Source: a virus. From it: DNA of 23,311 bases. Within the stretch, counting starts at the first letter, position 1. Every line of letters begins with the position of its first letter. Shown here piece after piece: positions 1,698 to 23,039 of this stretch. A program made the position numbers and the translations under genes. The notes below the pieces were generated by a model. It was not told where the DNA came from. It did not search any database and saw nothing but the letters and a program-made list of their open reading frames with translations. The stretch lies in the IMG/VR virus record IMGVR_UViG_3300046694_000573, positions 1-23,311 of that record. One strand, 5' to 3'.

Positions 1698-1723
1698 TGT
1701 GGGGAAGTGGGAGGTTTGGCACT
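1698..1723 (-). repeat. Left terminal inverted repeat with transposase site L1
   Basis: The sequence starts TGTGGGGAAG and contains TTTGGCA at 1715-1721, the inward-facing complement of the TGCCAAA core. The first 24 bp match the complement of 23001-23024 at 17 positions. It corresponds to L1 of Mu-type ends, where the transposase cuts and joins. The assignment comes from the internal repeat comparison only. Confidence 0.7.
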
Positions 1724-1783
1724 GATCCGCTTACTGGGCGCTACCGTACAGGCCACAACACACGCGGGATAGCGCTCAGTCGT

Positions 1784-1805
1784 TATGCCAAAACAGCGCG
1801 AAGGG
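1784..1805 (+). repeat. Candidate transposase-binding site L2
   Basis: ATGCCAAAACAGCGCGA closely resembles the right-end copy at 22943 (ATGCCAAATAGCGCGTGA). Its TGCCAAA core at 1786-1792 points opposite to L1, 71 bp inside it. Mu ends likewise carry three sites each, with L1 set apart from the inner two. Confidence 0.6.
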
Positions 1806-1835
1806 CGCAGGTGGCGGACTTATCCACAGCCCGCC

Positions 1836-1857
1836 ATTTGACAGGCTGTTTGGCCCC
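1836..1857 (-). repeat. Candidate transposase-binding site L3
   Basis: On the minus strand this reads GGGCCAAACAGCCTGTC, sharing GCCAAACAGC with L2 and oriented like L1. It lies just downstream of the repressor stop. The match is weaker than for L1 or L2 because the first core base differs. Confidence 0.45.
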
Positions 1858-1871
1858 GCGTTGCTGGCGGC

Positions 1872-2534
1872 CTAGATCATCCACGACGCATTCCACACCA
1901 CGCGCCCGACGATCTGCAGGTCGGCCAGGTGTTCCTTGGCGACGGTCATGGTGTGGTAGGCCGGGTTGGCGCTGATGATCGCGATGCCGCCGCCAATCTG
2001 ACGTTGCAGACGTTTGGCGAACAGGTGCTGGTCCAGCAGGATCACGTAAAAAGCCTCGCTCTCCACGGTGTTCTTGCTGTGGTCGACCATCACCGTGTCG
2101 CCGTCGCTGAGCAGTGGCTCGTTGGAATCGCCATCCAGGCGCACGGCGGACAGGTTGGCTGGGTCCAGGCCCTTCTTGCGCAAGCTGTAGCGGGTAAACG
2201 CCAGGTGCGTGAGCACGGTGGCGCCGTCGGACCAATTGCCGTGCCCGGAGCTGATCTGCGCGTCGTACAGCGGAATATGCGCGTAGGTTTCGTCGTCCGG
2301 TTCGGCCGCCGGCGCGATGCCTTGGCGGATATCACCTTCGCCTGAGGCCAGCCAGCCAATATCGACTCCCACCGCCTTGGCGATGTCGACACAGCGCGCC
2401 ACTTTTGGCTCGCTCGCCCCGGTCATGTAGTACTCCAGGGTCCGCCGCGGGATAGCGGTAATCCGCGCCAATTCATCGCCGCTTCCGGCTATCTCCGCGC
2501 ATTGCCTGATGCGTTCTGCCAAGCCTGCGCTCAT
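1872..2534 (-). CDS. S24/LexA-type phage repressor (c-like)
   Basis: A 220-residue repressor with an N-terminal HTH DNA-binding region (about 6-50) and a C-terminal S24 peptidase domain. The catalytic pair appears to be Ser137 (in GDSNEP) and Lys174 (in AKRLQR). They are 37 residues apart, as in LexA (Ser119/Lys156). The self-cleavage position, usually Ala-Gly, is here Ser96-Gly97 in ISSGHG, so cleavage may be slower or use a variant site. The gene is divergent from ner, with the operator array between them, as in Mu. By family knowledge, RecA-stimulated self-cleavage after DNA damage would relieve repression of the early operon; Mu's own repressor is not of this type. Start chosen at the ATG on 2534, next to the operators. 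Confidence 0.9.
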   Translation of the reverse strand: MSAGLAERIRQCAEIAGSGDELARITAIPRRTLEYYMTGASEPKVARCVDIAKAVGVDIGWLASGEGDIRQGIAPAAEPDDETYAHIPLYDAQISSGHGNWSDGATVLTHLAFTRYSLRKKGLDPANLSAVRLDGDSNEPLLSDGDTVMVDHSKNTVESEAFYVILLDQHLFAKRLQRQIGGGIAIISANPAYHTMTVAKEHLADLQIVGRVVWNASWMI

Positions 2535-2776: not shown

Positions 2777-3118
2777 ATGAACAAAGCCGACATTCCGCTT
2801 GATCCCACCATCCGTTGGGAATGGATCAAGTACCAGCTGCGTGCCCAAGGCACGTCACTCGCCAAAATCGCCAGAGAGCTTGATGTCACTGGCCCGGCGG
2901 TCAAGAACGCGAAGCGCATTGCCTACCCACGCGTGGAGCGCGCCATTGCCAAGGCCCTGAGCCTGAAGCCGGTGCAACTGTGGCCGGAGCGTTGGAACAG
3001 CAACGACGACACTCCCAACCGTATTCGCGTACAGCGAGCAGAAAACAACGCAACTTATAGCCAAGAGAATAACCCAGGTTATATCTGCGAACACGCTAAA
3101 ACGGCGGAGGGCGTCTAG
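2777..3118 (+). CDS. ner: Ner/Nlp-family early regulator
   Basis: A 113-residue protein whose first ~75 residues match the Ner/Nlp pattern: a tryptophan-rich start (IRWEWIKYQL), then an HTH (SLAKIARELDVTGPAVKNAK), then VERAIAKALSL and a WPERW motif. Mu Ner is about 75 residues, so this carries a tail of roughly 40 residues (from about 74) rich in Asn, Asp and Glu with no recognised domain. In Mu, Ner damps the early and repressor promoters after induction. The gene is first in the rightward early operon, with AAAGGA about 10 bases before the ATG. Family assignment is firm; action on the nearby operators is inferred. Confidence 0.87.
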   Translation: MNKADIPLDPTIRWEWIKYQLRAQGTSLAKIARELDVTGPAVKNAKRIAYPRVERAIAKALSLKPVQLWPERWNSNDDTPNRIRVQRAENNATYSQENNPGYICEHAKTAEGV

Positions 3119-3120
3119 AC

Positions 3121-3231
3121 ATGCGTCATACCCAGCCCGTCGCCCTCGTGGTTGCAATAAAGCCAGATATGGCTATGTCATATAATGCCATCGTTGTTTC
3201 GCCGCGCCCGCGGGGTGAGCAGCATGCGTAA
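3121..3231 (+). CDS. Possible 36-aa small ORF between ner and A
   Basis: ATG at 3121 follows GGAGGG by a normal spacing and opens a 36-codon frame. It begins MRHTQPVALVV and ends at TAA 3229-3231, overlapping the transposase start by 8 bases. It resembles nothing I recognise. It could serve only to couple translation into the transposase gene. The same DNA contains promoter-like sequence, so the frame may be fortuitous. Confidence 0.22.
   Translation: MRHTQPVALVVAIKPDMAMSYNAIVVSPRPRGEQHA
3152..3186 (+). promoter_or_regulatory. Candidate second promoter/regulator box before transposase A
   Basis: ATGGCTATGTCAT at 3169-3181 repeats 12 of 13 bases of the box at 2697-2709 in the early promoter. 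TTGCAA (3152-3157) lies 16 bp before TATGTC (3174-3179). A perfect TATAAT lies at 3181-3186. Either could be a promoter giving extra transposase expression, or the box could be a Ner site. Evidence is sequence only. Confidence 0.35.
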
Positions 3232-5248
3232 TTGGTACACGGCCCAGGAACTGGCCGGCCTGCCAGGGCTGCCAGGTACCGAGCGGGCAATTCAATTGCG
3301 CGCCAAGCGCGAGCAGTGGCAAGGCCAACAGCGGCTCGGCAGCAAAGCCATGGAGTACGCCTTTGCGGTACTGCCATCCGCTACCCAGGCGGCGTTGCTA
3401 CAGGCGGCAGTGAAAGCCGAGCCGGCGGAAGCGAACGCGGTGGTCGCCGCTGAGCGGAGCGCGGCATGCCTTACCGACGACCAGCGCTCGGTGATGACCG
3501 CACGCCTGGCCTTCATTCGTGACATCGAACGCATGAGCGCCACCGTCAGCCAGCAACGGGCGATTCTCAGCCTGGTGCAGTTGGCCAAGGACGGACAGTT
3601 GAGTGCTTACCTCAGCGAGCGGGTAGTCCGTGCGAATGATCGCAAGACGGCGGATCGCACCCTGTCGGAACGCACCCTGAAACGTTGGCTCTCGGCCTAC
3701 CAGCACGGCGGCGAAGTCAGCCTGGCGCCACTGCGCCGGCAACAAGACATGGGCGTGCCCGACTGGGCGCCGGTGTTTCTGCGTTGCTACCAGCGGCCGA
3801 GCAAACCCAGTGTGGTGGCGGCTTACAGCGAGTTCGCGGTGAAGTGCCCCGGCGAGCGCCCAAGCATTCATGTGGTGCGCCGCTTTCTCGACAAGTTGAG
3901 CCCTGAGGTGCGCGAGACCGGTCGCCGCAGCCCGCAAGAGTTGAAGGCCCTGCAGCCGTTCAAGCGGCGCAGCACCCAGAGCCTGCGCCCCTGCGATGTG
4001 TTCACTGCCGACGGGCACAAGTTCGACGCCGAGGTGCTCAACCCGCGCACCGGCAACCCCTATCGGCCGGAAACCACCACGGTGCTCGATGTGCACACCC
4101 GCAAGGTGCTGGGCATCAGCATCGGCGAGGCGGAATCGACCATTGGCGTGATCGATGCGCTGCGTGATGCGGTGACCCGTGGCGGTATGTTCGCGATTTT
4201 TTATGTGGATAACGGTTCCGGTTTTGCCAACGCCACGGTGCGCGAAGTGGTCGACCGCCTCGGCGGCACCATGAGCCATGCGCTGCCCTACAACAGCCAG
4301 GCGCGCGGCTTGATCGAGCGTGCGCACCAGAGCATCTGGGTTAATGCGGCGAAAAAACTGACCAGCTACATCGGCGCCGACATGGACAAACACGCCGGCA
4401 GCAAGGTGCACCGCATCAGCCGCAAACAGCTGCGCGAAACCGGCAGCACACGCCTCATTCCAACCTTTGCCGCGTTCATGGCCGGGGTCGAGTTCGAGGT
4501 GCAGGCCTACAACAGCAAGCCGCACCGCGGCCTGGGCAAAATCCGCGATCCGTTGACCGGCAGCCTGCGCCATATGAGCCCCGACGAAGCCTGGGAAAAG
4601 GCCTGCGCCGAGGGTTGGGCACCGCTACAGGCGTCCGCCGCCGTGGTGCAGGACCTGATGCGCCCGCAGGTGCAGCGCCAGACCGTGCGTGGCGAAGTGA
4701 CCTGGGCCAATCAGCGCTATTTCCTCGCGGCCCTGCGCGACTTCCATGGCGAAGAAATCAACCTGTCCTACGACGTCCGCGATGCCTCGCGGGTCTGGGT
4801 TCGCACCCTGCAGGGTGAGTTCCTCGGCGAGGCGTTGCTGGACGGTAACGCCAGCGACTACATGCCGAAAAGCCTGCTCGAGCAAGCCTATGAAAAGCGC
4901 GAGCAGGGGCAGATGAAACGCGCCATCGACAAGTTGGAAACCCTCACCGGCAAACGGGTGCAGATGCTCGCCAGCCCCACCGCGCCCAGCGCCACCCTTG
5001 AGCCGCTGCAACTGCTCGACGCCCAGCGTTATGCCCAACGCCTGGACGCTCAAGCGGCGGCGAGTTTCCAGGTGCCCAACGACTCGATGGCGCGTTATCG
5101 CCTGTGGCAGCAGCTCGACAAACGCCAGGCCAGCGCCCAGGCGCTCAGCGACGCCGAAGCACGCTGGCACAGCCATTACCCGAGCACCCCGGATTTCGCC
5201 TCCGTTCAACGTATCTACGACTTCGCGGCCGCGCAGGCCAGCGCATGA
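3224..5248 (+). CDS. A: MuA-type DDE transposase
   Basis: A 674-residue transposase close in length to MuA (663). The N-terminus (MRNWYTAQELAGLPGLPGTE) parallels MuA MELWVSPKECANLPGLPKT, so I chose ATG 3224, preceded by GGTGAG, over the in-frame ATG at 3185. The catalytic DDE triad appears as Asp263 (TADGHKF), Asp329 (FYVDNGSGFAN) and Glu365 (ARGLIERAHQS). Upstream are end- and enhancer-binding domains; the C-terminal ~100 residues would contact the B ATPase. It should bind the six end sites and catalyse strand transfer. No frameshift or internal stop is seen, so the protein looks functional. It ends just upstream of the B gene, inside the same operon. Confidence 0.95.
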   Translation: MRNWYTAQELAGLPGLPGTERAIQLRAKREQWQGQQRLGSKAMEYAFAVLPSATQAALLQAAVKAEPAEANAVVAAERSAACLTDDQRSVMTARLAFIRDIERMSATVSQQRAILSLVQLAKDGQLSAYLSERVVRANDRKTADRTLSERTLKRWLSAYQHGGEVSLAPLRRQQDMGVPDWAPVFLRCYQRPSKPSVVAAYSEFAVKCPGERPSIHVVRRFLDKLSPEVRETGRRSPQELKALQPFKRRSTQSLRPCDVFTADGHKFDAEVLNPRTGNPYRPETTTVLDVHTRKVLGISIGEAESTIGVIDALRDAVTRGGMFAIFYVDNGSGFANATVREVVDRLGGTMSHALPYNSQARGLIERAHQSIWVNAAKKLTSYIGADMDKHAGSKVHRISRKQLRETGSTRLIPTFAAFMAGVEFEVQAYNSKPHRGLGKIRDPLTGSLRHMSPDEAWEKACAEGWAPLQASAAVVQDLMRPQVQRQTVRGEVTWANQRYFLAALRDFHGEEINLSYDVRDASRVWVRTLQGEFLGEALLDGNASDYMPKSLLEQAYEKREQGQMKRAIDKLETLTGKRVQMLASPTAPSATLEPLQLLDAQRYAQRLDAQAAASFQVPNDSMARYRLWQQLDKRQASAQALSDAEARWHSHYPSTPDFASVQRIYDFAAAQASA

Positions 5249-5265: not shown

Positions 5266-5991
5266 ATGAGTGTTTCGAAAATCATCCCATTGACCAACGT
5301 CGGCCTGTTGGCCACCGCCATCGAACGCGCCATGCAGCGCCCTGAGGGTTTGCCGGGCCTGGTGGTGGCCTATGGGCCGAGTGGCCTGGGCAAGAGTGTC
5401 GCCGCCGGCTGGGCGGCCAATATGCACCGCGCCTATTACGTCGAATGCCGCGACACCTGGAGCAAAAAAGCCTTCCTGTTGGCGATCCTGCGGGAGATGG
5501 CCATCAGCCCGGCGCGCACCTTGAGCGAGATGGTCGACCAGATCGCCGAGCAGCTCAGCCGCAGCAACCGGCCGATCCTGGTCGACGATGTGCAGTACCT
5601 GTTGGACAAGGCCGCCGCCAACGTCCTCACCGATATCTACAACGCCAGCCAGGGCACCATCGTGCTGATCGGCGAGGAGCGGGTGCCCCATAGCCTGGCC
5701 AAGCTGGAGCGCCTGCATAACCGCGTGCTCGAGTGGGTGCCGGTGCAGGCCGCCACCCTCGACGACCTGCGCAGCCTGGCCGACGCCAGCTACCCGAGCC
5801 TGCTGATTGCCGACGACCTGCTCGATGACCTGCGCAAGAAAGTACGCGGCTGCCTGCGCCGGGTGTCGGTCAACCTCTACCGGGTGTTCAGCGAGGCGCA
5901 GGCGATTGGCTGGGAGCGGGTTGACCTCAACCAGTGGGGCAACCGCGGCTGGTTCACCGGCGACGCACCGGCGCGGAGGGCGTGCGCATGA
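5266..5991 (+). CDS. B: MuB-type AAA+ ATPase, transposition target selection
   Basis: A 241-residue P-loop ATPase with Walker A GPSGLGKS at 37-44 and Walker B ILVDD at 103-107, followed by an arginine-rich C-terminal helical region. In Mu, B binds DNA in an ATP-dependent manner, delivers target DNA to the transpososome and gives target immunity. MuB is about 312 residues; this protein starts nearly at the ATPase core, so it lacks most of the MuB N-terminal HTH domain, as in other shorter Pseudomonas phage relatives. The start at 5266 follows GGGAG; the longer upstream frame (from 5104) lies inside gene A and is rejected. It overlaps the next gene by ATGA. Confidence 0.92.
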   Translation: MSVSKIIPLTNVGLLATAIERAMQRPEGLPGLVVAYGPSGLGKSVAAGWAANMHRAYYVECRDTWSKKAFLLAILREMAISPARTLSEMVDQIAEQLSRSNRPILVDDVQYLLDKAAANVLTDIYNASQGTIVLIGEERVPHSLAKLERLHNRVLEWVPVQAATLDDLRSLADASYPSLLIADDLLDDLRKKVRGCLRRVSVNLYRVFSEAQAIGWERVDLNQWGNRGWFTGDAPARRACA

Positions 5992-8736: not shown

Positions 8737-8877
8737 ATGAGCAGCCAACACCGACCCCTGACGGCCGAGCAGCGCCCACATAGCCGCGGCGTGCGCAGTT
8801 CCGCCCGGGCACGAGCCACATGGGAGAATCACCGAATGGGAGAACCACCGCATGAGCGAGCCTTTATTCAGCAATGA
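8737..8877 (+). CDS. Possible 46-aa ORF overlapping the start of mor
   Basis: The 8680-8851 interval has no clear gene. The best small frame starts at ATG 8737 (MSSQHRPLTAEQRPHSRG), is rich in Arg, and ends at TGA 8875-8877, 26 bases inside mor. It has no clear ribosome-binding site. It may be fortuitous or a coupling leader for mor. No similarity is recognised. Confidence 0.18.
   Translation: MSSQHRPLTAEQRPHSRGVRSSARARATWENHRMGEPPHERAFIQQ
8820..8851 (+). repeat. 16-bp tandem duplication in the mor leader
   Basis: ATGGGAGAATCACCGA (8820-8835) is followed directly by ATGGGAGAACCACCGC (8836-8851), differing at two positions. The second copy ends at the mor ATG. Each copy carries a GGGAGAA ribosome-binding-site-like core, so the duplication places two potential binding sites before mor. 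Confidence 0.8.
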
Positions 8878-9289
8878 CAGCAACAAACTGGACCCCGCCA
8901 AGGTGCTGGCGCATATGACCGACCCGGCCGTGCTGACGCGCTGGGAAGGCACCCTGAAAGAGATGGTCGAAATCGCTGAAGCCAAGCTGCGCAGCGAGCT
9001 CGGCGATGTAGCTAACGTGCCGAGCCTGGCCCGTCATGTGGTGTTTGCTCTGTGCGACACCCTGGGCGGCAGCGTGGTTTATCTGCCGCGAGGGGATACT
9101 CTCAAACGTGCCATGCGCGACGCCGCGATCTTTCGCGACTGGCGCGACGGCGGCAAACAACCGGCCGACCTGGTACGCAAATACCGTCTGGCCAACCAGA
9201 CCATCTACGACATCATCGCCCGGCAACGGGCACTGCACCGCAAGCGCGAGCCGGACCTGTTCGGCACCGGCAATAACAGCGTGCATTAA
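8852..9289 (+). CDS. mor: Mor/C-family middle-late transcription activator
   Basis: A 145-residue protein of the Mor/C family. The central dimerisation region includes VYLPRGDTLKRAMRDAAIFR, a strongly conserved family motif. The C-terminal HTH includes LVRKYRLANQTIYDIIARQR. Mu Mor is 129 residues. In Mu, Mor activates the middle promoter for C, and C then activates late promoters; here no second family member is present, so this protein probably drives lysis and tail transcription directly. It is the last gene before a strong terminator, as Mor ends the early operon in Mu. The start is preceded by GGGAGAA. Confidence 0.93.
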   Translation: MSEPLFSNDSNKLDPAKVLAHMTDPAVLTRWEGTLKEMVEIAEAKLRSELGDVANVPSLARHVVFALCDTLGGSVVYLPRGDTLKRAMRDAAIFRDWRDGGKQPADLVRKYRLANQTIYDIIARQRALHRKREPDLFGTGNNSVH

Positions 9290-9459: not shown

Positions 9460-9963
9460 ATGAGCGTAAAAGCCCGGCTCATGGCTGCCGCCATCACCTT
9501 GGCCACGCCCACCGTTCTGTACTTCGAGGGGCGCAGCCTGTTCGCCTACCTGGACCCGGTAGGCATCCCGACCATCTGCGATGGCTGGACCCAGGGCGTG
9601 CAGCTTGGCGATGTAGCCACCGCCACGCAGTGCGATGCCCATACCCGCGAGGGCCTGGAACAGGCTGCAGCGATCTTGCTGCGTTGGGTGCCGGGCGAGG
9701 TGCTGGCGGGCCTGAGTGCGCACAGCAGCGCGGCGTTTCTATCGTTTATCTACAACGTCGGCCCCGGCCAGCCCGGGGTCAAAGACGGCTTTGTCTGGCT
9801 GAAGAATGGTCGCCATTCCACCTTGTTGTTGCACCTGCAGGCCGGGCGCGTGGCGCAGGCGTGTAGCCAGCTTTCGGCATGGACCCGTGCCGGTGGCAAG
9901 GTGCTGAGAGGGCTCGAACGGCGCCGTGCGGCAGAGCGCGAACTGTGCGAGGCCGAGCTATGA
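9460..9963 (+). CDS. SAR-type endolysin, GH24 lysozyme
   Basis: A 167-residue muramidase that cuts the peptidoglycan glycan backbone. The Glu-8aa-Asp-5aa-Thr catalytic triad of phage lysozymes is exact: Glu23 (FEGRS), Asp32 (LDPVG), Thr38 (TICDG). Residues about 8-21 (MAAAITLATPTVLY) form a weakly hydrophobic, Ala/Thr-rich N-terminal segment typical of signal-arrest-release endolysins, which go through Sec and refold after release from the membrane. For a tailocin this releases particles by lysing the producer. First gene after the late promoter; it overlaps the spanin gene by ATGA. Confidence 0.93.
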   Translation: MSVKARLMAAAITLATPTVLYFEGRSLFAYLDPVGIPTICDGWTQGVQLGDVATATQCDAHTREGLEQAAAILLRWVPGEVLAGLSAHSSAAFLSFIYNVGPGQPGVKDGFVWLKNGRHSTLLLHLQAGRVAQACSQLSAWTRAGGKVLRGLERRRAAERELCEAEL

Positions 9964-10577
9964 ACCTGTCCGCCTGGAAAGCCCTGTGGCCGTTGCTGCT
10001 GGCCGCCGTGCTGGCGGCGCTGGTGTGGCGCTACGGCGCGGTGCAATGGCAGAGCGGTTATGCCCAGGCCAAGGCCGAAGGCGACAGTGCGTTGGCCGGG
10101 TTGCGCCTGCAGCACAGCCGCGAAGAGACCGAGCGCGCCGAGGCCGCCATGGTGCAAAACAGTCAGGCCACCCAGACCCTGCAGCGCGAGCAACAACGCG
10201 CCAACGACCTGGCCGCCGAACTGGCCAGCCAACAACGCCACAACCGCCAAACCACTGACCGCCTTAGCGGGGAGATTGCCCGTGTCAACGACCTGTATCG
10301 CGAGGCGCTGGATGCGCCGGCCAAGCCTTTGCCTGCTTGTGTGTTCACTGTTGGTTGGGTGCACATCTATGACCAAGCCAGCGGCGCCGCCCTGCCTGAC
10401 CCCGCAGATTCCAGCGGAACTGCTGCGCCGCCCAACGCCGCCAGTGCCGCTGCGCAACTGGACTCAGGGCTCAGCCAGCGTGAGCTTCTGGCCCACCATA
10501 TCCAGTACGCCGAACAATGCCGTAACACCACCCGGCAGCTGGAGCTGCTGATCGACCAGGTAACCGGTAAGCCATGA
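9960..10577 (+). CDS. Rz-like inner-membrane spanin (i-spanin)
   Basis: A 205-residue type II membrane protein: short N-terminus, one transmembrane segment (about 7-26, ALWPLLLAAVLAALVWRYGA), then a long coiled-coil periplasmic domain rich in Glu, Gln and Ala (about 35-115). This is the architecture of Rz, the inner-membrane partner in disrupting the outer membrane. It shares 240 bases with an embedded Rz1-like lipoprotein gene in another frame, as expected for Rz/Rz1. The C-terminal region beyond the overlap is unusually long and charged. Linked to the neighbours by ATGA overlaps on both sides. Confidence 0.87.
   Translation: MNLSAWKALWPLLLAAVLAALVWRYGAVQWQSGYAQAKAEGDSALAGLRLQHSREETERAEAAMVQNSQATQTLQREQQRANDLAAELASQQRHNRQTTDRLSGEIARVNDLYREALDAPAKPLPACVFTVGWVHIYDQASGAALPDPADSSGTAAPPNAASAAAQLDSGLSQRELLAHHIQYAEQCRNTTRQLELLIDQVTGKP
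10312..10551 (+). CDS. Rz1-like outer-membrane spanin lipoprotein, embedded in Rz
   Basis: A 79-residue frame entirely inside the Rz-like gene. It begins MRRPSLCLLVCSLLVGCTSM, with a lipobox ending at Cys17, and the mature part is Pro-rich (PAAPPCLTPQIP and RRPTPPVPL), as for Rz1 o-spanins. Rz1 is lipid-anchored in the outer membrane and pairs with Rz across the periplasm. Embedded Rz1 genes are typical and easily missed in annotation. Start at ATG 10312, with GAGGCGCTGG upstream. Confidence 0.85.
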   Translation: MRRPSLCLLVCSLLVGCTSMTKPAAPPCLTPQIPAELLRRPTPPVPLRNWTQGSASVSFWPTISSTPNNAVTPPGSWSC

Positions 10578-10957
10578 GTTTTTCAATCGGAGATCTGTTC
10601 ACCTGGGCCATCAGCCTGCTGGGAATCTTCACCACCCTGGTGTTCGGCCTGGTCAAGCTGCTGCTCTGGCAGTTCGAAAAACGCCTGGACGAGCGTTTCA
10701 GCGCTCAGGAAACCGCGCGCAAAGAAGCCAGCCAGGTGTGGGAGGGCAACTTCGAGAAAGTCTTGAGCCGTCAGGACAAAGACGCCGAAGCCCTGCGCCG
10801 CCTGGAGAATGAATTTCTGCGCTTCAAGGGTGAGCTGCCCCTGGAATACGTACGCCGCGAAGACTGGGTGCGCGGCCAGTCGGTGATCGAGGCCAAGCTC
10901 GATGGCCTTGCCCTCAAATTCGAAAATCTGCTGCTCAAACGCACCCGCCAAGACTGA
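10574..10957 (+). CDS. Mu gp25-like membrane protein (DUF2730)
   Basis: A 127-residue protein with one N-terminal membrane segment (about 5-30, containing LFTWAISLLGIFTTLVFGLVK) followed by a charged coiled-coil-like cytoplasmic or periplasmic domain. It resembles the DUF2730 family that includes Mu gp25, found between the lysis genes and the packaging genes. Its function is unknown; because no other holin candidate is present, a role in lysis timing is possible but speculative. It is the last gene before the head module would begin in Mu. Confidence 0.75.
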   Translation: MSFSIGDLFTWAISLLGIFTTLVFGLVKLLLWQFEKRLDERFSAQETARKEASQVWEGNFEKVLSRQDKDAEALRRLENEFLRFKGELPLEYVRREDWVRGQSVIEAKLDGLALKFENLLLKRTRQD

Positions 10958-11248
10958 CGCGCAACGCGTCGTTTTAACGCCTTCTCGGGCCTACTCGCCC
11001 GGGTTGTATCACCTGCGCCGGCAACCGGCGTTAGACCCCCGTTAGACACGTGCCCCAGCCCCTTGGTGAACCTTGTTCCCTTGGCGAACCTTCCCAGCCC
11101 CCACTCCATTGTTCGCGCCGCCTCTGCCCGCGTCCGGCTTTTATCTGCCTGGCCCTTGCAGCCTTACGCCGCACTGAAACTCCCGGTCGCTCGCCAGCCG
11201 CCAACATGGCGACATGCAACGAACCACCCCCAAGGGAGCCGCACACCC
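10958..11248 (+). promoter_or_regulatory. Gene-poor junction where the Mu head module would be
   Basis: About 290 bp separates the gp25-like gene from gp36, the place Mu carries gp26-gp35. I see no terminase, portal or capsid remnant. It holds CGGGC/GCCCG (10986-10990/10997-11001) and CGCCGG/CCGGCG (11016-11021/11025-11030) hairpins without T-runs, CGTTAGAC repeated 11 bp apart (11029 and 11040), and a near-identical 15 bp pair at 11060-11074 and 11078-11092 (CCCTTGGTGAACCTT, one base different). A tail-operon promoter may lie here. A 12-codon leader (11214-11252) overlaps the gp36 start. Confidence 0.55.
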
Positions 11249-11686
11249 ATGAACCTATCGCTACCGACGGCCAGCCAGATGCTCCTGCGTTTTGGTGCGC
11301 GTCGCCTCACCGAGCTGGCGGTGCCGGACACCGAACAAGTGATCGACCCACTGCTGCTGCAAGCGGCTGCGGCCGGTGCACCGCTGGACGAGTGGCTGAG
11401 CTCGGAGATCGCCATCGCCCAACAGGCCCTGGCCCGCATCGCCGATGCCGCCGGCCGGGCGCGCAGTGAAGTGCTGTTTTACCTGCGCTACCGCCAGGCC
11501 GAGCAGGCCGCCCCGGAGTGGGCGCTGGACGATGTGATGGAACTGGCCCGCTACCACCTGGTGGACAGCGCCGGCAAGAAGGGCTCCACCGTGCGGACCC
11601 GTTACCGCGATGTGCTCAAGCGCCTGCAGACCCTGGCTGCCGAAGACCGCGCCACTGCCGCGCCCACCAGCGCAGGTAGCAACTGA
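11249..11686 (+). CDS. Mu gp36-like protein (DUF1320), neck/tail-completion
   Basis: A 145-residue protein of the DUF1320 family: LPTASQMLLRFGARRLTELA parallels the Mu gp36 opening, with ARYHLVDSAGKKGSTVRTRY in the C-terminal half. In Mu this gene (J) lies between capsid and tail genes, near the connector. Retained here without any capsid, it may help complete the tail end that would meet the head. Start ATG 11249, with AGGGAG upstream, was chosen over an in-frame upstream start (11063) lying in the noncoding junction. It ends in a TGATG overlap with the next gene. Confidence 0.85.
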   Translation: MNLSLPTASQMLLRFGARRLTELAVPDTEQVIDPLLLQAAAAGAPLDEWLSSEIAIAQQALARIADAAGRARSEVLFYLRYRQAEQAAPEWALDDVMELARYHLVDSAGKKGSTVRTRYRDVLKRLQTLAAEDRATAAPTSAGSN

Positions 11687-12249
11687 TGCTGGGCGAGCTG
11701 GAAGACCTAATCCAGGCCCGCCTGGGGCTGCTACGCGGCTCGCTCAAGCGCCTGACCATCGGCAGCTACGGCGGTGAACTGCGTGACCGCGACCTGTTGC
11801 CGGCGCTGCTCTCGCGCTGCCCGGCGGTGCTGCTGGAAACCCCGCGAGCGGTGTTCCACAAACGCGCCAAGGGCCGCTACAGCATTGCCATCAGCTTTCG
11901 CCTGGTGATCGCCAGCCGCCACCTGCGTGGTGAGCGCGAAGGTCGTCGTGGCAACGCCGAAGAGATCGGCAGCTATGCGCTGTGGAGCGCCTGCATGGCG
12001 CAACTGGTGGACTGGCAACCCTGGCCCGAGCGGGCGCGGATCGAGCCCACCGAGCTGCTCAACCTGGTCAATGGCCAGGCGCAAGCAGACAGCCTGTCGG
12101 TGCTCGGCCAGTCGTTTGTGATCGAACTGGATTGGCAGAAACCGCTGGAAGAACTACCGGACCTGTTGGGCATTGACCTGCAGTTCCACGTACCCGCAGG
12201 CAACCCGTCTGCGGTGGCCAACGACTCCATCGAATTGGGGACTAGCTGA
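11686..12249 (+). CDS. Mu gp37-like protein (DUF1834), tail terminator candidate
   Basis: A 187-residue protein of the DUF1834 (gp37) family found before the sheath gene in Mu-like phages. The opening MLGELEDLIQARLGLLRGSL and the RDRDLLPALLSRCPAVLLET-like region (about 30-48) fit that family. In related contractile tails this protein caps the tail at the head-proximal end, so it is expected to be kept by a tail-only particle. It shares one base with gp36 and with the next gene. Function is inferred from family and order. Confidence 0.85.
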   Translation: MLGELEDLIQARLGLLRGSLKRLTIGSYGGELRDRDLLPALLSRCPAVLLETPRAVFHKRAKGRYSIAISFRLVIASRHLRGEREGRRGNAEEIGSYALWSACMAQLVDWQPWPERARIEPTELLNLVNGQAQADSLSVLGQSFVIELDWQKPLEELPDLLGIDLQFHVPAGNPSAVANDSIELGTS

Positions 12250-12452
12250 TGCGCGTTATCGCTGCACCTGATGCTCGCGTACCACAGGAAGGCACGCCGC
12301 GAGCCTTTATTGAACCTGCTCCGGCCAAGCCTGTGGACGTGCCGGACACCTCGTACTACCGCCGTCGGATTGCCGCGAAGGAGCTCCTGCTCGTTCCCGT
12401 CAGGCCTCGTCGCAGTGCCAAAGAAAACGCTAAAGGAGATACCCACGCATGA
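12249..12452 (+). CDS. Mu gp38-like small tail protein (DUF2635)
   Basis: A 67-residue basic protein matching DUF2635, the small protein always placed before the sheath in Mu-like phages. PDARVPQEG and the VPDTSYYRRRIAAKELL region are characteristic. Its function is not established. It overlaps the sheath gene start by ATGA, and its last codons include the sheath ribosome-binding site AAAGGAG. Confidence 0.85.
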   Translation: MRVIAAPDARVPQEGTPRAFIEPAPAKPVDVPDTSYYRRRIAAKELLLVPVRPRRSAKENAKGDTHA

Positions 12453-13546
12453 CCATTGCCTTTGACACCATCCCGGCGTCGATCCGTAAACCCGGCGCCT
12501 ATTTTGAATTCAACACCAGCCTGGCAGTTCGTACCCTGCCAACCAACGCCCAGAGCATCTGCTTCATCGTGCCCCTGAGCGAAGGCGCCACCGCGGCTGC
12601 CAACCAACCGGCGCAGGTGTACAGCGCTGCCGAAGCCAAGGCCCAGTTCGGCGTGGTCGCCGAAGAAATGGTCGCCGCGGCCATCAAGGCCTACCGCTAT
12701 GCCGCGATCTCCTGTGTCGGCGTAGTGGTTGAAGGCTCCACCGAGCCGGATATCAGCGCTGCCCTGGATGCCACCGCACAAGGCGAGTACAGCATCCTGG
12801 TACCGGCCTGGTACAGCCAGGCGGCCCTGACGGCGCTGCGTACCCACATCAACACCTACACCGATTCCATCGAGCAGCAAGGCATCCTCGGTGTCGGCGC
12901 GCTGACAACCACGTTGTCCGCCGCCACCACCCTGGCCAACTCCCTGAACGCTGGCCCGATCACCCTGGCACTGCTGCCGGGTACCGCCTCCAGCCCACGT
13001 GAAGTGGCCGCCGCCTACGCCGCCCTGATCGCCTCGGAAGAAGACCCGGCGCGTCCGCTGAACACCCTGGTGCTCACCGGTATCAAGGTGCCGGCGATTG
13101 CCAACCGCCTCGGCCGTGTCGAGCAGGAAACCTGCCTGGCCAATGGCGTGACGCCGCTGGAAGTGGGCGCTGGTGATGTGGTGCAGATCGTTCGTGCGGT
13201 GAGCACTTACACCAAATCTGCGGCCGGTGAGGACGACGTTTCCCTGCTCGATCTGACCACCCTGCGCACCCTCTACTACGTGCGCAAAGCCTGCCGTGCC
13301 CGCGTTCGCCTGCGCTTTCCGCGCGCCAAGCTGTCGAGCAAAACCCCGGCAGCGGTGCGCAGCGAACTGCTCGATGTGCTGAAGAAATGTGAAGAGCTGG
13401 AGATCCTCGAAGCGGTCGACGCCAACGCCGATGGCCTGATTGTCGAGCGCTCTCTGCAAGACGTTAACCGGCTCAACGGAGCCATCCCTGCTGATGTTGT
13501 GAACGGCCTGCACGTGTTTGCCGGTCGCATCGATCTGCTGCTGTAA
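12449..13546 (+). CDS. Contractile tail sheath protein (gpL-like, short form)
   Basis: A 365-residue sheath subunit. The opening IAFDTIPASIRKPGAYFEFN corresponds to the Mu gpL N-terminus, and the C-terminal end VNGLHVFAGRIDLLL fits the conserved sheath terminus that links subunits. Mu gpL is 495 residues, so about 130 residues are missing overall, most simply from a middle surface domain. The sheath forms the contracting outer cylinder that drives the tube through the target envelope. It is preceded by AAAGGAG and followed by tube in the usual order. No frameshift was seen, so the short length looks native. Confidence 0.9.
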   Translation: MTIAFDTIPASIRKPGAYFEFNTSLAVRTLPTNAQSICFIVPLSEGATAAANQPAQVYSAAEAKAQFGVVAEEMVAAAIKAYRYAAISCVGVVVEGSTEPDISAALDATAQGEYSILVPAWYSQAALTALRTHINTYTDSIEQQGILGVGALTTTLSAATTLANSLNAGPITLALLPGTASSPREVAAAYAALIASEEDPARPLNTLVLTGIKVPAIANRLGRVEQETCLANGVTPLEVGAGDVVQIVRAVSTYTKSAAGEDDVSLLDLTTLRTLYYVRKACRARVRLRFPRAKLSSKTPAAVRSELLDVLKKCEELEILEAVDANADGLIVERSLQDVNRLNGAIPADVVNGLHVFAGRIDLLL

Positions 13547-13556: not shown

Positions 13557-13928
13557 ATGTCGGATAACTATGTTGGGCAGATCGTCCTCTCGGTCAACGG
13601 GGCGGACTATGAAATCAAAGAGCTGAACCACACCCTGAAAACCGGTCGCATCGTGGTCAAGACCATGAACCGCAAGGGTCGCCCGCTGGGTACTGCTGAG
13701 GGCGTGGAGGACTACTCGCTGACCGTCAGTGTCGCCATTCCTAAAGCGGGTGAACCGGACTGGCGCGCGATGCTGGACGCCAAGATCACCATCGAGCCGC
13801 TCGACGGCGGTGGTCAGCGTGAGACCTGGACCGGCGTATCGCTGGTGCAGATGGGCAGCAAGTACGTCCTGGAGGGCGAGGCGACTCGCAGCCTGGATCT
13901 GACCGCCCTGAACTACTACACGGAGTAA
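13557..13928 (+). CDS. Tail tube protein (gpM-like)
   Basis: A 123-residue tube protein (Mu gpM is about 118) starting MSDNYVGQIVLSVNGADYEI after TAAGGAG. The ALTVSVAIP-like beta-rich middle and the repeated Val/Ile/Thr alternation fit the tube fold. It polymerises inside the sheath around the tape measure. It lies between sheath and chaperone, in the Mu order. Start chosen by ribosome-binding site over the earlier in-frame start at 13518 inside the sheath gene. Confidence 0.88.
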   Translation: MSDNYVGQIVLSVNGADYEIKELNHTLKTGRIVVKTMNRKGRPLGTAEGVEDYSLTVSVAIPKAGEPDWRAMLDAKITIEPLDGGGQRETWTGVSLVQMGSKYVLEGEATRSLDLTALNYYTE

Positions 13929-13934
13929 GTCGGC

Positions 13935-14300
13935 ATGACGACCCACGAGAAACGCTGGGATGGCCTGACCATCACCCGTGATCTGGCGATAGGCGTTTTC
14001 TACGCGGGTTCTCGTCACAAGACCTTCACCCTGCGCGTACCCGTCGCTGGCGACTTGATTGCCGCCCAGCAAGCGTACCCGCAGGGCCCCATGCAACTGA
14101 TCAGCATCGACGTCTACCGCCAGCAATTGCTGGCCTTGGGCGAGATTCCGACAGAGGCATTGACGGTCGAGCTGTTGCGCGCCGAATTGGCTGAAACCGA
14201 TCTGGCGATCATCGCTCGCGCTGACGAAGACCTGGAAAAAAAGCTCGCGCCGCCGAGCGCGGCATCACCGATTGGCGACGGGTCGAACACGCCCTCGTAA
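13935..14300 (+). CDS. Tail assembly chaperone, unshifted product (gp41-like)
   Basis: A 121-residue protein in the position of Mu gp41, the short form of the tail assembly chaperone pair that helps tape measure and tube assemble. It begins MTTHEKRWDGLTITRDLAIG. Near its end the gene contains A AAA AAG at 14237-14243, in the exact register of a -1 slippery heptamer, allowing a longer fused form. It is soluble, with no enzyme motif. Confidence 0.85.
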   Translation: MTTHEKRWDGLTITRDLAIGVFYAGSRHKTFTLRVPVAGDLIAAQQAYPQGPMQLISIDVYRQQLLALGEIPTEALTVELLRAELAETDLAIIARADEDLEKKLAPPSAASPIGDGSNTPS

Positions 14301-14425
14301 AACACGGTTACCGGCTGGACGAAATCAGCCGCATGAGCCGCGCGGAAATCGACGCCCGCGTTGATCTTCTGGTAGGCCGCAAGGCCGGCACCACTCGCTA
14401 CGTCAGTCAACGAAAGCGCAAATAG
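13935..14425 (+). CDS. Tail assembly chaperone, -1 frameshift fusion product
   Basis: About 163 residues. The first 103 are shared with the short product. At 14237-14243 (A AAA AAG, the dnaX-type heptamer) ribosomes can slip back one base and continue from GCT at 14243 for 60 codons to TAG 14423-14425. The extension begins ARAAERGITDWRRVEHALVK and ends QRKRK. A GC stem (14246-14250 with 14257-14261) starts just downstream and could stimulate slippage. This matches the conserved programmed frameshift of tail chaperone genes between tube and tape measure. The annotation joins 13935-14243 to 14243-14425. Confidence 0.85.
14237..14243 (+). promoter_or_regulatory. -1 programmed frameshift slippery site
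   Basis: Heptamer A AAA AAG in the chaperone reading frame (codons GAA AAA AAG). The A-run spans 14236-14242. A 5-bp GC stem with a 6-nt loop follows at 14246-14261. The -1 frame stays open for a further 60 codons, just reaching the tape measure leader. Confidence 0.85.
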
Positions 14426-14434
14426 AGGTTAATC

Positions 14435-16168
14435 ATGAGTTCAGATCCAAGCGTCTCATTGCGCATTCAGACCGAAGCCAGCAAAGAGGGCGCCAAGGCC
14501 TTGGCCGACCAGGCTTACAAGGCCAACGTCGCGGCCAGCAACCTGGCTCAGGCCGGGGTGACCAGCTACCAGATGGCCCGCCAGGCGCTGCGCGATACGT
14601 CCACCCAGGGCGCGAGCCTGTTGCGTCAGGAACTGCAGAGCGCGGGCAGTACCCTACGCGCCGTGAAAGCCCTGGCGGGTGGTGGGCGCGGCGAGCAGCT
14701 GCGCAGCTTCGCCAGCAACGGCCTGCACGACAGCGCTAGCCTGGATCGCCAGCTGATTCGTCTGCAACAGAGCAGCGGTATGAGCAACGGCCAGCGCCAC
14801 GAGTGGCGTGACGAAGGGGCACGGATTGCCCGTGCCTATGGGCTTAATCGTGCGGATGTGGACAGCGGCTTCGGCACCTTGATTGGCGCCGGCCTGAGCT
14901 ACTCCGCCGCGAAAAAAGCCAGCGACGCCTTGGGCCGCACGAGTGCCGTTACCGGTAGCGATTCGGCCACCCTTGGGCAGGCCCTGCTCGGCGGCGCCAG
15001 TGCCTTTAACGTCGACCTTAACCAGGACGGCGCGGCACTCGGTCTGCTGCAGAAAATGACCGTGGCTGGCCGTCTTGGTGGGCCGGGGTTCGAGCAACTA
15101 ACCGAACTGTTCCCACGTATTGGCGCCAGTGCGGCGAGTGCCGGGTTATCGATCGAGCAGACTCTGGCGCTGCTGGGCACTTTGCCCAAAGCGGCGCTGC
15201 AAAGCGCGGAGGTTGGCGCCCTGATCAGTGCTGCCAGACCGGCGAACTTCTCGCCGGCCGCCGGTAGCAGCGTGACCAACTTAGGTGTGCGGGCCGGTCA
15301 GATTGGCAATGCCGCCGCGGTGTTCGGTAACGACCTGAACCAGAACCTGGCCAGCGCCAGCGGTACCTCGGCACGGGTAAAAGCCACTGTGGGGCAGGCG
15401 CTTGATCGTATGGCGCAACCGCTGAACAACAGCCTGGCACAGGCCGGCAGTTACCTGCTCGATGACCTCAACTTGTCCGGCGAGCACCTGTTGGGCACTG
15501 CCGCTGCGGCCGGTATTGGCGCGCATTACGCCGGACGTGGTGCCGGTGCGTTGTTCAACCGTTTTGTGGGGGCGCAGACCCTGCAAAACGTTGCAGTGGG
15601 CAAGGTGCTGCAGGACGCGGCAGGCGTCACCTCGGTGTTTGTCACCAACTGGCCTGTCGGCTCGTTGGGGATACCCGATATCGGGCTGGACACAGGCGGC
15701 GCTGGAGCGGGCAAAAAGCCTGGGCTGGGCCGGCTTAGGGGATTGTTAAAGGGCGGCGGTGTTCGCGGGCTTGTTCTGGCAGAACTGCTGGACAACGCCG
15801 ACGAGCTCTTCACTCCGCTTCCTGGCGATCGCCTTCCACAACCTGATGAAGAGAGTTCGGCCGCTCAGAACGCTGGTGCGGATTCCGCTTGGTTGCACAA
15901 GAACGCCGCGCGTATTCCTCAGGACGGCAGCGGCTTGAATGCCACTGATGGTGCCGCCAGCGAGTCCCAAGCCTGGGCCTCGGGCCTGTCTTCACGACTG
16001 GTCGACGGCGCCCTGGCGATGCCGATTGGCAGTGGTGCGCAGGCGGCCGAAACGCGCCTGGCGGAGCTGCTGAGCAAGCCCCTGGTGATCGAGGTCAGGA
16101 CCGACAGCGACATGATCATGGCGGAAGTTGAACGCCGTACCGAAATGCAGATGAGGCGTGGACAATGA
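14435..16168 (+). CDS. Tail tape measure protein
   Basis: A 577-residue tape measure: long Ala/Gly/Ser/Leu-rich helices, starting MSSDPSVSLRIQTEASKEGA, with a hydrophobic region around 355-385. It sits directly after the chaperone frameshift. In Mu-like tails this protein sets tail length, at about 1.5 angstrom per residue. Near 577 residues this suggests a tail of roughly 85-95 nm, an inference from length only. It is followed by a 4-base overlap with the gp43-like gene. Confidence 0.9.
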   Translation: MSSDPSVSLRIQTEASKEGAKALADQAYKANVAASNLAQAGVTSYQMARQALRDTSTQGASLLRQELQSAGSTLRAVKALAGGGRGEQLRSFASNGLHDSASLDRQLIRLQQSSGMSNGQRHEWRDEGARIARAYGLNRADVDSGFGTLIGAGLSYSAAKKASDALGRTSAVTGSDSATLGQALLGGASAFNVDLNQDGAALGLLQKMTVAGRLGGPGFEQLTELFPRIGASAASAGLSIEQTLALLGTLPKAALQSAEVGALISAARPANFSPAAGSSVTNLGVRAGQIGNAAAVFGNDLNQNLASASGTSARVKATVGQALDRMAQPLNNSLAQAGSYLLDDLNLSGEHLLGTAAAAGIGAHYAGRGAGALFNRFVGAQTLQNVAVGKVLQDAAGVTSVFVTNWPVGSLGIPDIGLDTGGAGAGKKPGLGRLRGLLKGGGVRGLVLAELLDNADELFTPLPGDRLPQPDEESSAAQNAGADSAWLHKNAARIPQDGSGLNATDGAASESQAWASGLSSRLVDGALAMPIGSGAQAAETRLAELLSKPLVIEVRTDSDMIMAEVERRTEMQMRRGQ

Positions 16169-17451
16169 GTTGGGCTGAAACGTTATTCGACGCCTCGTTC
16201 CGGGGTGTACCGCTACAGGTCATCAGCGAGAATCTGGAGGGCACCCGCGCGCTGTCGCAGCATGGCACGCCCTACAAAGACGGCGATGCCGTCGTCGACC
16301 TGGGCCGCGCGGCGCGCAAGTTCGAGCTGAACGTGGTGGTCTATGGCAACAGCTACGAGCGCGAGTTGCGCGAGCTGCTGGAGAGCCTGGATACCCTCGG
16401 CCCGGGCGAGCTGATTCACCCGGTGTACGGCAGCCTCAACGTGGTGGTGCAGGACTGGAAAGTCTTGCACGCGGCCGACCGGCCGAACTACGCAACGGTG
16501 ACCCTGCACGTTGTCGAAGCCAGTGCTGACGCACCGTTTTTCCCAGCCGATGAAACCGGCTGGCAGCATGGCCTGTACGACATGCTGGGGCGGGTCGACT
16601 CGCTGGTGGCGAAGGTTCAGGAGCTGATCAGTGGTGGTTGGGTCGGCTTGCTGGAAACCACCCTCGGCCTGCCGGGCATCGGCTTGCGTTTGCGCCAGCT
16701 GCGCTCGCAGATTCTCGGGGTGGTATCGGGGGTCACCTCGATGGCCAGCAACCCGGCAGGGGCTTTTGACCCGCTGCTTGATCTGCTGCGCACCCCCAGC
16801 GAAATCCGTGCGGCGATCCAGCTCAGCACCCCCAGCAGCCTGCGCGGCTTGCTGGCCCGCAGCGGTTTGCCGACCAGCGTGCCGGGCAGCGCCAGCCTGG
16901 TGGCGGAGGTGGCGCGGGTCGGTGCCGAGCTGTTGAGCAGTGCCCGAGTGGGCAATACCCCGGATGCCAGCCGCCTGCCGAACGCCATGCCGAGTGATCC
17001 GGTCAGCGCCAGCGCCTACGGCCTGCTGGTGCTGCTGACCACCGAGCTGGCGCTGTCCCACGCCCAGGCCGCCACGGCGTTGCTCGACGACGAGACGCAA
17101 ACCCAGACCCTCAGCCCGAATGAAATCGAAGGCCTGGCCAACCTGGTGCGCTCGCTGATCCAGGCCGCCATCCTGCTGCACCGCCGCCTGTATGACGTGG
17201 AAGTGGCGCTGCCGACCATCGAGGCGCTGCGCGGCATCGCCGCCCTGGTGCAGACCCGTGCCCAGCAAGTGATTCTGCTCAGCCCGCCGCTGCTCGAACG
17301 CACCCTGGAGTCCCCGGCCAGCCTGCGCCTGTTGGCCCACCGCTGGTACCAGGACCACAGCCGCGCCAACGAGCTGCTGCGCCTGAACCCCACCCTCAAA
17401 ACGCCGCACAACCTTGCGGCCGGCCAAGTGGTGCGTGCCTATGCCCAGTGA
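16165..17451 (+). CDS. Mu gp43-like protein (DNA circularisation N-terminal family)
   Basis: A 428-residue protein with the DNA_circ_N family opening (SWAETLFDASFRGVPLQVIS, then an RGAARKFELNVVVYG-like stretch at about 50-63). In Mu it is gpN (gp43), once proposed to help circularise injected DNA, now regarded as a tail/baseplate-associated protein; in a headless particle only the structural role is relevant. The C-terminal half is long helical, Leu/Ala rich, ending with a LysM-like PTLKTPHNLAAGQVVRAYAQ stretch. It shares 11 bases with the hub gene start (17441). Confidence 0.88.
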   Translation: MSWAETLFDASFRGVPLQVISENLEGTRALSQHGTPYKDGDAVVDLGRAARKFELNVVVYGNSYERELRELLESLDTLGPGELIHPVYGSLNVVVQDWKVLHAADRPNYATVTLHVVEASADAPFFPADETGWQHGLYDMLGRVDSLVAKVQELISGGWVGLLETTLGLPGIGLRLRQLRSQILGVVSGVTSMASNPAGAFDPLLDLLRTPSEIRAAIQLSTPSSLRGLLARSGLPTSVPGSASLVAEVARVGAELLSSARVGNTPDASRLPNAMPSDPVSASAYGLLVLLTTELALSHAQAATALLDDETQTQTLSPNEIEGLANLVRSLIQAAILLHRRLYDVEVALPTIEALRGIAALVQTRAQQVILLSPPLLERTLESPASLRLLAHRWYQDHSRANELLRLNPTLKTPHNLAAGQVVRAYAQ

Positions 17452-18541
17452 ATCGATAAGCCTGGCCATTGGCGGTGACGCCCATGCGCAGTGGGACAGC
17501 TGGTCGGTGGAGTCGGACTTGCGCACGCCAGCTGATGGCTTCGAGCTGGCGCTGCATACTCAGGACACGGCGCGTTTGTCAGAGCTGCTGGTGGCGGGTT
17601 CGGCCTGCACACTGAGCCTGGGCGCGGATCGGGTATTGACGGGCTGGATTGATGAGGTCATCCACGAGGTGTCGCGAGCAGGCGTGACCATCAAGGTTAC
17701 CGGTCGTGATGCGGCGGCGATCCTAGTGGATAGCACGCCACCCTTTATCTGCATGCACGATGCCGGGTTGCTGGAAGTGGTGGAGCAGATCGCCCGGCCT
17801 TTGGGAATAACCCGGGTGGACATTCATAACGTCGATCCCAAGAACTCCAAACGTGTGCAACTGGCGCCCACGCAGAAAGCATGGGATGCGATCAAGGCGG
17901 TAGCAGAGACGAACAACCTGTGGCCATGGATGGAGGCCGATGGCCGATTGGTGATTGGTGTTCCGGACTATTCCAGCGCCCCTGCGGACACCTTGCTGTT
18001 GCGCCTGGATGGTGTCGGCAACAACGTCAGCAACCTGTCTGTACGCCGCTCCTATGCCGACCGCTACAGCCATGTTTTTGTGTATGGCCAACATGGTCAG
18101 TACACCAGCGAAAACTATGACTTTGCTGGTAACCGGGTGGCGGCGGCGTTTCAGGACAAGACCATGGTCCGCTATCGACCGACAACGGTCGAGGCGCCCG
18201 TGCAAAACCAGCAGCATGCCGATCAGGTAGCCCGAGACCAGATTGCCAACAGTCGTCTGGAAGGGCTGGAAATACAGGCTGTCGTGCAAGGTCATCGGAC
18301 TGCCGCGGGCGATCTCTGGACACCAGGCCAACGGGTGATTGTGCGCAGCGAACCGCACGACCTGGACGCGACGTTTTTCCTGATGTCGCGCAAGCTCAGC
18401 CTGTCCCGCAGCAGCGGGCCAACCACGCTGTTGCGCCTGGTTGAGGACAAGGTGTGGAAATCCCACAGCTCGCTGGCCGATGCCTACAAGGGCAAGGCCA
18501 CCTCTGTTGAAACCTTTGTCGAAGTAAAGGCGGCGAAATGA
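17441..18541 (+). CDS. Baseplate hub protein (Mu gp44/gpP-like)
   Basis: A 366-residue hub protein, close to Mu gp44 (379). It begins MPSESISLAIGGDAHAQWDS, with beta-rich gpD-like domains: DRVLTGWIDEVIHEV (about 61-75) and KVTGRDAAAILVDSTPP (about 85-101). It forms the central ring holding spike and tube. Start at ATG 17441 (the upstream in-frame ATG at 17414 lies inside the preceding gene and gives nine extra residues). It ends with ATGA into the spike gene. Confidence 0.88.
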   Translation: MPSESISLAIGGDAHAQWDSWSVESDLRTPADGFELALHTQDTARLSELLVAGSACTLSLGADRVLTGWIDEVIHEVSRAGVTIKVTGRDAAAILVDSTPPFICMHDAGLLEVVEQIARPLGITRVDIHNVDPKNSKRVQLAPTQKAWDAIKAVAETNNLWPWMEADGRLVIGVPDYSSAPADTLLLRLDGVGNNVSNLSVRRSYADRYSHVFVYGQHGQYTSENYDFAGNRVAAAFQDKTMVRYRPTTVEAPVQNQQHADQVARDQIANSRLEGLEIQAVVQGHRTAAGDLWTPGQRVIVRSEPHDLDATFFLMSRKLSLSRSSGPTTLLRLVEDKVWKSHSSLADAYKGKATSVETFVEVKAAK

Positions 18542-19098
18542 AGACCTTTGCGCAAATGATGCGGCAACAGTCCGCCGCCGAACGCTCCAACTTCCGCCAG
18601 GCGTTCCGCGCTGTCGCTGCTCGCAATACCCAGGGCAAATTGATTGGCGTGGAGATGGAAGGCCTGGCCGGCGAAGCGGTGTCTGGCGAGTTGTTCCAGC
18701 ACTACGGCTTCACCTCCGCGCCGCTGGCCGGGGCCGAATTCATTGCCGTGCCGGTGGGCGGTAATAGCCGCCACACCGTGGTGGTCGCCAGTGAGGACGG
18801 GCGTTACCGCATCACCCTGCAGGACGGCGAGGTGGCCTTGTACAGCGACGAAGGCGACCGCGTGCACCTCAAGCGTGGGCGGGTGGTCGAGGTGGTGACC
18901 CAGACCCTGCTGGTCAGCGCCGGGCAGAAGGTGCGCTTCGACACGCCACTGCTCGAGGTCAGCGGCCAGGTGCAGGTGAGCGGCGATATCAGCAGTGCCG
19001 CCGAGGTTCGCGACCACACCCGCAGCCTGCAGGCCGACCGCGATATCTACAACGGCCATACCCATGGCAGCGGCCCGGCGCCCACGCAAAAGCAGTGA
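18538..19098 (+). CDS. Baseplate spike protein (Mu gp45/gpV-like)
   Basis: A 186-residue spike, similar in length to Mu gp45 (197). N-terminal OB-like region, then beta-helix type sequence with VALYSDEGDRVHLKRGRVVE and a tip containing His174-Thr-His176 near the C-terminus. The HxH pair is the iron-coordinating apex seen in such spikes. The trimer pierces the target outer membrane. A 92-base gap with no ORF or clear promoter follows before gp46. Confidence 0.9.
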   Translation: MKTFAQMMRQQSAAERSNFRQAFRAVAARNTQGKLIGVEMEGLAGEAVSGELFQHYGFTSAPLAGAEFIAVPVGGNSRHTVVVASEDGRYRITLQDGEVALYSDEGDRVHLKRGRVVEVVTQTLLVSAGQKVRFDTPLLEVSGQVQVSGDISSAAEVRDHTRSLQADRDIYNGHTHGSGPAPTQKQ

Positions 19099-19190
19099 GG
19101 CCGGTTTGACCCTACGCGCGCGTGGCAAGGCCTTGAGCCTTAAAACGCGCTGAAACTCCCCCCTGGTAACGCGCGAGGCAACCTACAGCC

Positions 19191-22325: not shown

Positions 22326-22332
22326 GGAACCC

Positions 22333-22941: not shown

Positions 22942-22963
22942 GATGCCAAATAGCGCGTGAAAA
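22942..22963 (+). repeat. Candidate transposase-binding site R3
   Basis: ATGCCAAATAGCGCGTGA at 22943 closely matches left site L2. The TGCCAAA core lies at 22944-22950, 35 bp before the R2 core and in the same orientation. Confidence 0.6.
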
Positions 22964-22976: not shown

Positions 22977-22998
22977 GGTGCCAAATACCCTGCAAGCC
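22977..22998 (+). repeat. Candidate transposase-binding site R2
   Basis: GTGCCAAATACCCTGCAAG has the same core and orientation as R3 and lies exactly 22 bp before R1, so R2 and R1 are contiguous, as in Mu. Confidence 0.6.
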
Positions 22999-23024: not shown

Positions 23025-23039
23025 TAAACACCCGCGCAC

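Follow-up and report, generated by a model that had tools for sequence, protein, structure and literature searches.

Results

A Mu-like element with a contractile tail and no head genes

The window, that is, the whole virus record of 23,311 bases that was analyzed, carries a Mu-like Pseudomonas element of 21,327 bp at positions 1698 to 23024. Its genes and end features are collected in Table 1. In transposase A, residues D276, D342, and E378 were nearly invariant among the compared loci, and the start of transposition protein B was set by alignment with a relative. The 187-amino-acid product encoded at 11686 to 12249 matched the "portal protein" family phrog_490 and corresponds by Pfam to a Mu gp37-like protein. 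PADLOC found no defence genes among seven early or accessory proteins, and the window contains no tRNA genes.

Table 1. Features of the element and its immediate flanks (window coordinates)
Feature	Position	Strand	Evidence or remark
Left 5-bp flank AGTGA, ending in the histidine-kinase stop codon	1693..1697	.	Unlike the right flank
Left terminus with site L1	1698..1721 (core 1715-1721, minus)	+	Base-exact alignment with termini of 17 relatives
Transposase site L2, 71 bp from L1	1786..1792	+	Shortest of the spacing ladder 71/83/94/106/116/139
Transposase site L3 (one mismatch), 63 bp from L2	1849..1855	-	Family L2-L3 mostly 64-65
CI-like repressor	1872..2534	-	phrog_4, E 2.7e-43
Ner-like repressor	2777..3118	+	phrog_769, PF13693
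Transposase A, MuA/D3112-type	3185..5248	+	phrog_310, E 3.2e-165; PF02316, PF09299
Transposition protein B, AAA ATPase	5266..5991	+	phrog_296, PF13401
Mor/C-type late activator	8852..9289	+	phrog_532, PF08765
Endolysin, Rz-like spanin, lipoprotein	9460..10957	+	
Junction without the relatives' 8.8-kb head and packaging module	10958..11212	.	
Mu gp36-like head-tail adaptor and gp37-like protein	11213..12249	+	PF07030, PF08873
Tail sheath	12449..13546	+	phrog_165, E 3.6e-112; PF04984
Tail tube, tail chaperone, short tape measure	13557..16168	+	
Tail/baseplate genes including gp44-like hub (17414-18541)	16165..21183	+	Hub exchanged between window and GV071
Tail fibre and fibre assembly chaperone	21183..22887	+	Exchanged between window and GV071
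Transposase site R3, 35 bp from R2	22944..22950	+	Most relatives 46, i.e., one turn more
Transposase site R2, 22 bp from R1	22979..22985	+	22 bp in 25/26 measured right ends
Right terminus with site R1 (TGCCAAT form)	23001..23024	-	Right termini of relatives
Right 5-bp flank TAAAC	23025..23029	.	

Several hallmarks of Mu-like transposable phages are present: a DDE transposase of the MuA type together with ATPase B, a set of three transposase sites at both ends, and TG/CA termini. Two others are absent: the element has neither head and packaging genes of its own nor a 5-bp target duplication (AGTGA on one side, TAAAC on the other). It is a derivative of a Mu-like transposable phage and not a complete phage. 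Measured against R-type tailocins, it combines a contractile tail, baseplate, fibre, and lysis genes with the absence of head genes, and its genes are intact and selected. It departs from the description in a review (PMC12090994), in which tailocins lack replication genes, in that transposase A and protein B are present and under selection.

The absence of head genes had gone unmentioned in the first-pass annotation. Searches with PHROGs and Pfam revealed no terminase, capsid, protease, or full-size portal within the element. In a full-length relative of 34.7 kb (G302), the window proteins matched in order on either side of a gap from 14,391 to 23,230, which holds the small and large terminase, portal, gp30-like, neck, protease, and major head genes; the module missing from the window element amounts to 8.8 kb. 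At the junction, positions 10901 to 10960 and the stretch from 11162 on matched relatives, with weak or no matches in between. The tape measure comprises 577 amino acids (14435 to 16168) versus 742 in the full-length relative, so that a shorter tail would be expected.

Using transposase A (3185 to 5248) as the query, 46 loci in species genomes and the best 80 of 138 loci in viral contigs were collected (126 in total), together with 75 sheath loci. Head genes occurred in 51 of the 52 sheath loci that were informative, having at least 8.5 kb upstream; the exception was the record of Pseudomonas sp. GV071 itself. Among the 95 of 126 transposase loci with at least 11.5 kb downstream, 83 led to a terminase, 2 to a sheath (both GV071), and 10 to neither. 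GV071 was thus the only further headless relative among the 126 transposase and 75 sheath loci. Two relatives had an internally deleted appearance: in L121, the transposase was joined near the tape measure, and in L180 (G313, contig 15), there were no head or tail matches between gp30 and gp47.

Ends of the element and transposase sites

Six TGCCAAA-type sites, three per end, had been named in the first-pass annotation. All are present, four as exact copies at 1715 (-), 1786 (+), 22944 (+), and 22979 (+) and two as one-mismatch forms at 1849 (-; GGCCAAA) and 23001 (+; TGCCAAT). A further exact copy is internal, at 12416 (+). The total of five exact copies in the window is no excess over chance (shuffle mean, 3.96; at least 5 in 36 of 100 shuffles), and four of the five lie within about 160 bp of an element end. 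It is their placement at the ends, rather than the motif count, that is the conspicuous feature. Recomputation returned the same figures as before for the termini: 1698 to 1721 and 23024 to 23001 share 17 of their 24 positions, and the core has an offset of 18 in each. A degenerate pattern built from both termini matched only those two places, even with three mismatches allowed, and occurred in 0 of 100 shuffles; derived from its own two targets, it is circular as a search and demonstrates the absence of a third copy.

Other copies of the element, which the annotation had proposed as a check, were obtained by fetching the right side of 18 genomic elements, and both ends were readable in 17. 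The remaining element (L030/L180) reaches the end of its contig close to the right side, where no terminus could be credibly identified. All 17 relatives carry the same terminus types, TGTGRGG...TGGCAC or close variants on the left and TGTAAGC... on the right, and in most of them R1 and R2 lie 24 and 46 bp from the end. The left terminus of the window scored nearly as high as those of the best relatives, with a matrix first derived from observed left ends, which makes the left scores partly circular; an independent check of the boundaries comes from the 5-bp repeats. The right terminus matched the family consensus at 18 of 24 positions and departed from it at 6 (counted by eye), and this end could be weakened. 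It starts with TGTGAGG, which resembles a left end, while TGTAAG stands at the start in 17 of 17 relatives. The site at 1849 aligns with the family L3 behind a GC-rich hairpin, in agreement with its earlier assignment to the left end. This hairpin (1827 to 1855) immediately adjoins L3 in many relatives and may terminate transcription of the leftward repressor gene.

Distances between L1 and L2 were determined for 53 left ends, namely those with a single exact L2 among 60 nonredundant ones. They fell at 71 (the window), 82 to 84, 92 to 95, 105 to 107, 114 to 118, and 139 to 140 bp, with a best period of 11.35 bp (vector length, 0.877; n = 53). The spacing therefore shifts in steps of about 11.3 bp, or about whole DNA turns. 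At least 15 changes of spacing class were counted on the transposase tree, the classes having been defined after the values were seen. In 5,000 simulations each, the observed vector length was never reached by random sets of 16 or 12 values and was reached by sets of 8 values in 0.4%. Likewise, L2-L3 (46 values: 44 to 45, 53, 63 to 65, and 74 to 75) and R2-R3 (19 right ends: 35 in the window, GV071, and L179, 45 in 1, and 46 in 15) shift by about one turn. R1-R2 was 22 bp in 25 of 26 right ends, and the 26th has a mutated R1 core. Whole-turn spacing changes support the view that the end sites are working transposase sites and that the 71-bp spacing is still in phase. No papers on helical phasing in Mu transposition were found by title or abstract opening, and the left-end ladder offers a natural data set on this question in Mu-type transpososomes.

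A missing target duplication at a shared insertion site

The differing flanks noticed earlier were confirmed: AGTGA and TAAAC disagree at all five positions, and the two 40-bp flanks have no 5-mer in common. That a 5-bp duplication is to be expected beside such Mu-like ends was borne out by the 17 relatives: the 5-bp repeat is exact in 15, L034 retains 4 of 5 bases, and L005 has no exact repeat. Because the termini align to the family and the relatives follow the 5-bp rule, both ends are correctly placed and the duplication is truly absent. The suggestion that the boundary was off by a few bases is thereby excluded, since both ends are base-exact against the family termini. In GV071 (L003 in G001), the same element occupies the identical site and is likewise bordered by AGTGA and TAAAC; its length there is 21,326 bp by arithmetic from contig coordinates. 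A search of GV071 with positions 1698 to 8400, the left part of the element, found a single copy. Identical junctions in the two strains mean that the missing duplication is inherited, and an assembly error as the cause of the unequal flanks was rejected.

The insertion point has a hybrid histidine-kinase gene on one side and, on the other, a small gene in convergent orientation. As had been recommended, empty sites were sought, and two of them, G122 (kinase gene, 84% identical) and G645 (82%), have both flanking genes as direct neighbors. The distance from the kinase stop codon to the terminator A-tract is 40 bp in G122 and 20 bp in G645; joining the window flanks gives 15 bp. A convergent homologue of the right-hand gene was present in 20 of 53 kinase-bearing loci, adjacent to the kinase gene or up to about 620 bp away; these loci carry about 1.5 kb per side, include some sites fetched twice, and in three cases are GV071. 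Kinase DNA searches of overlapping sets of 298, 115, 398, and 398 genomes yielded no empty sites closer than G122 and G645.

Judged from gene order, the empty sites show the flanking genes to be ancestral neighbors. Since these genes adjoin in G122 and G645, no large deletion or recombination with a distant copy is needed. What was lost is one 5-bp copy and perhaps more, at most about 25 bp in all, flush with one terminus or the other; as the empty sites are only 82 to 84% identical in the flank, they do not fix the exact lost bases. The junctions common to both strains place this small loss in the common ancestor of the window and GV071 copies. Of the later rearrangement or deletion proposed in the first-pass annotation, the smallest form (a loss of 5 to about 25 bp) stands, and the empty sites speak against a large rearrangement. 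The missing duplication is a small, old scar and is ordinary in itself.

Selection and module exchange

A comparison of 24 element genes between the window and GV071 gave 101 synonymous and 20 nonsynonymous changes (pN/pS, 0.066), and all of these genes are unbroken in both strains. Left out of this count were the host kinase gene, the gapped gp44-like hub gene, the diverged fibre and chaperone genes, and the overlapping frames 8418 and 9036. For transposase A alone, there were 25 synonymous and 5 nonsynonymous changes (binomial P of about 1e-11 against neutrality). Substitution patterns of this kind show transposase A and protein B to be under purifying selection.

Amino acid identity to GV071 was 61% for the hub, 58% for the fibre, and 52% for the fibre chaperone, versus mostly 98 to 100% for the other annotated element proteins. 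By this comparison, the baseplate hub, fibre, and fibre chaperone are shown to have been swapped between the two copies. The 35 bases that begin with R3 and stop short of R2 include 14 differences from GV071, with the R3 core and offset kept, and the last 46 bases of the element are identical. The fibre and chaperone genes and the R3 region all fall in an exchanged stretch at 21183 to 22978, and a breakpoint lies at R2 or immediately ahead of it.

In the kinase flank, 45 synonymous changes were found in 402 sites, a synonymous difference of about 11% versus about 2% in the element. Because the flank is more diverged than the element, recombination probably moved the locus or its flank. Recombination at the locus is thus likely, and descent since insertion may not have been strictly vertical. 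As both copies are headless, their common ancestor was, by parsimony, headless too. The headless form is represented by one insertion lineage in two strains, with no evidence of movement.

Discussion

The value of the finding lies in the headless element rather than in the missing duplication. We consider it probable that the locus is a tailocin-like, domesticated Mu-like element that suffered a small loss at one flank, lost its head module, and still has its transposition genes under selection. A Mu-like prophage would have inserted between the kinase gene and its small convergent neighbor, and one copy of the duplication (either AGTGA or TAAAC) would have disappeared flush with a terminus, possibly together with as many as about 25 further bp. 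Most simply, one gapped junction might have been misrepaired during insertion, or the transposase might have made a tiny adjacent deletion. Both kinds of event have parallels in two reports: 5 of 15 sequenced Mu insertions in an Escherichia coli priA mutant had rearranged junctions (PMC3325207), and transposition of the Mu-like phage DMS3 from a lysogen gave large deletions bounded by the phage ends (PMC11406979). The whole head and packaging module would have been lost before the window and GV071 copies separated. The outcome would be a repressor-controlled, tailocin-like locus with lysis genes, a contractile tail, and an exchangeable fibre and hub, from which killing particles may be produced.

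Three other explanations have to be weighed. The element could be an ordinary defective prophage heading for loss, its head genes gone by chance and the missing duplication another scar; plain damage of this sort is seen in relatives L121 and L180. We regard this as unlikely here, given 24 unbroken genes in both strains at a low pN/pS, a deletion limited to one functional module, and exchanged specificity genes. Considerably less likely still is a loss of the duplication through recombination between two element copies at different sites or through a large adjacent deletion. Such events are known causes of missing duplications in insertion sequence elements, according to PMC11708052, but the flanking genes adjoin in both empty sites, and GV071 has a single copy.

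Slightly less probable again, and very improbable overall, is a satellite that keeps its tail and transposase and travels in the heads of a helper phage. Retention of the gp36- and gp37-like head-tail joining proteins, together with a complete transposition module and its ends, would suit such a life-style. However, the element revealed neither a terminase nor a packaging gene of its own, whereas the relatives have their own terminase, and no copies at other sites were found in the GV071 search or among the transposase and sheath loci.

On the domesticated-element reading, transposase A, protein B, and all six end sites are retained. Replicative transposition upon induction might multiply the locus before lysis. 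We propose, tentatively and as one possibility, that this is a tailocin which amplifies its own genes, with the transposase, protein B, and the phased end sites kept to raise gene dose before lysis and transposition so turned from a means of spread into a weapon amplifier. If true, the element would illustrate either an intermediate step or a different outcome in the evolution of tailocins, one where DNA transposition works for the weapon of the host cell.

No report of a Mu-like tailocin retaining a transposase was found in the open-access library searched. The tailocin of Pseudomonas syringae resembles the window element in being headless, contractile, and Mu-derived, with variable fibres at a fixed locus; its Mu derivation is given in PMC12090994. 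It differs in adjoining trpG/trpE, as stated in PMC12208367, and tailocins as described in the former review lack the replication genes that the window element keeps. In the BceTMilo tailocin of Burkholderia cenocepacia, too, the head region present in a related complete prophage is missing, although this tailocin is P2/KL3-like and not Mu-like (PMC5411513).

Complete phages offer a further comparison. Transposase A is 41 to 42% identical over 97% to those of Mu-like phages of Pseudomonas aeruginosa, which we take to be of the D3112 type (D3112/JBD24). These differ in being records of 36.6 to 38 kb annotated as phages, and they were absent among the 12 best sheath matches. Haemophilus phage SuMu, a Mu-like myophage, shares the contractile tail, with a sheath 44% identical to that of the window element; it differs in being a 37-kb phage record and is presumably a complete phage with a head.
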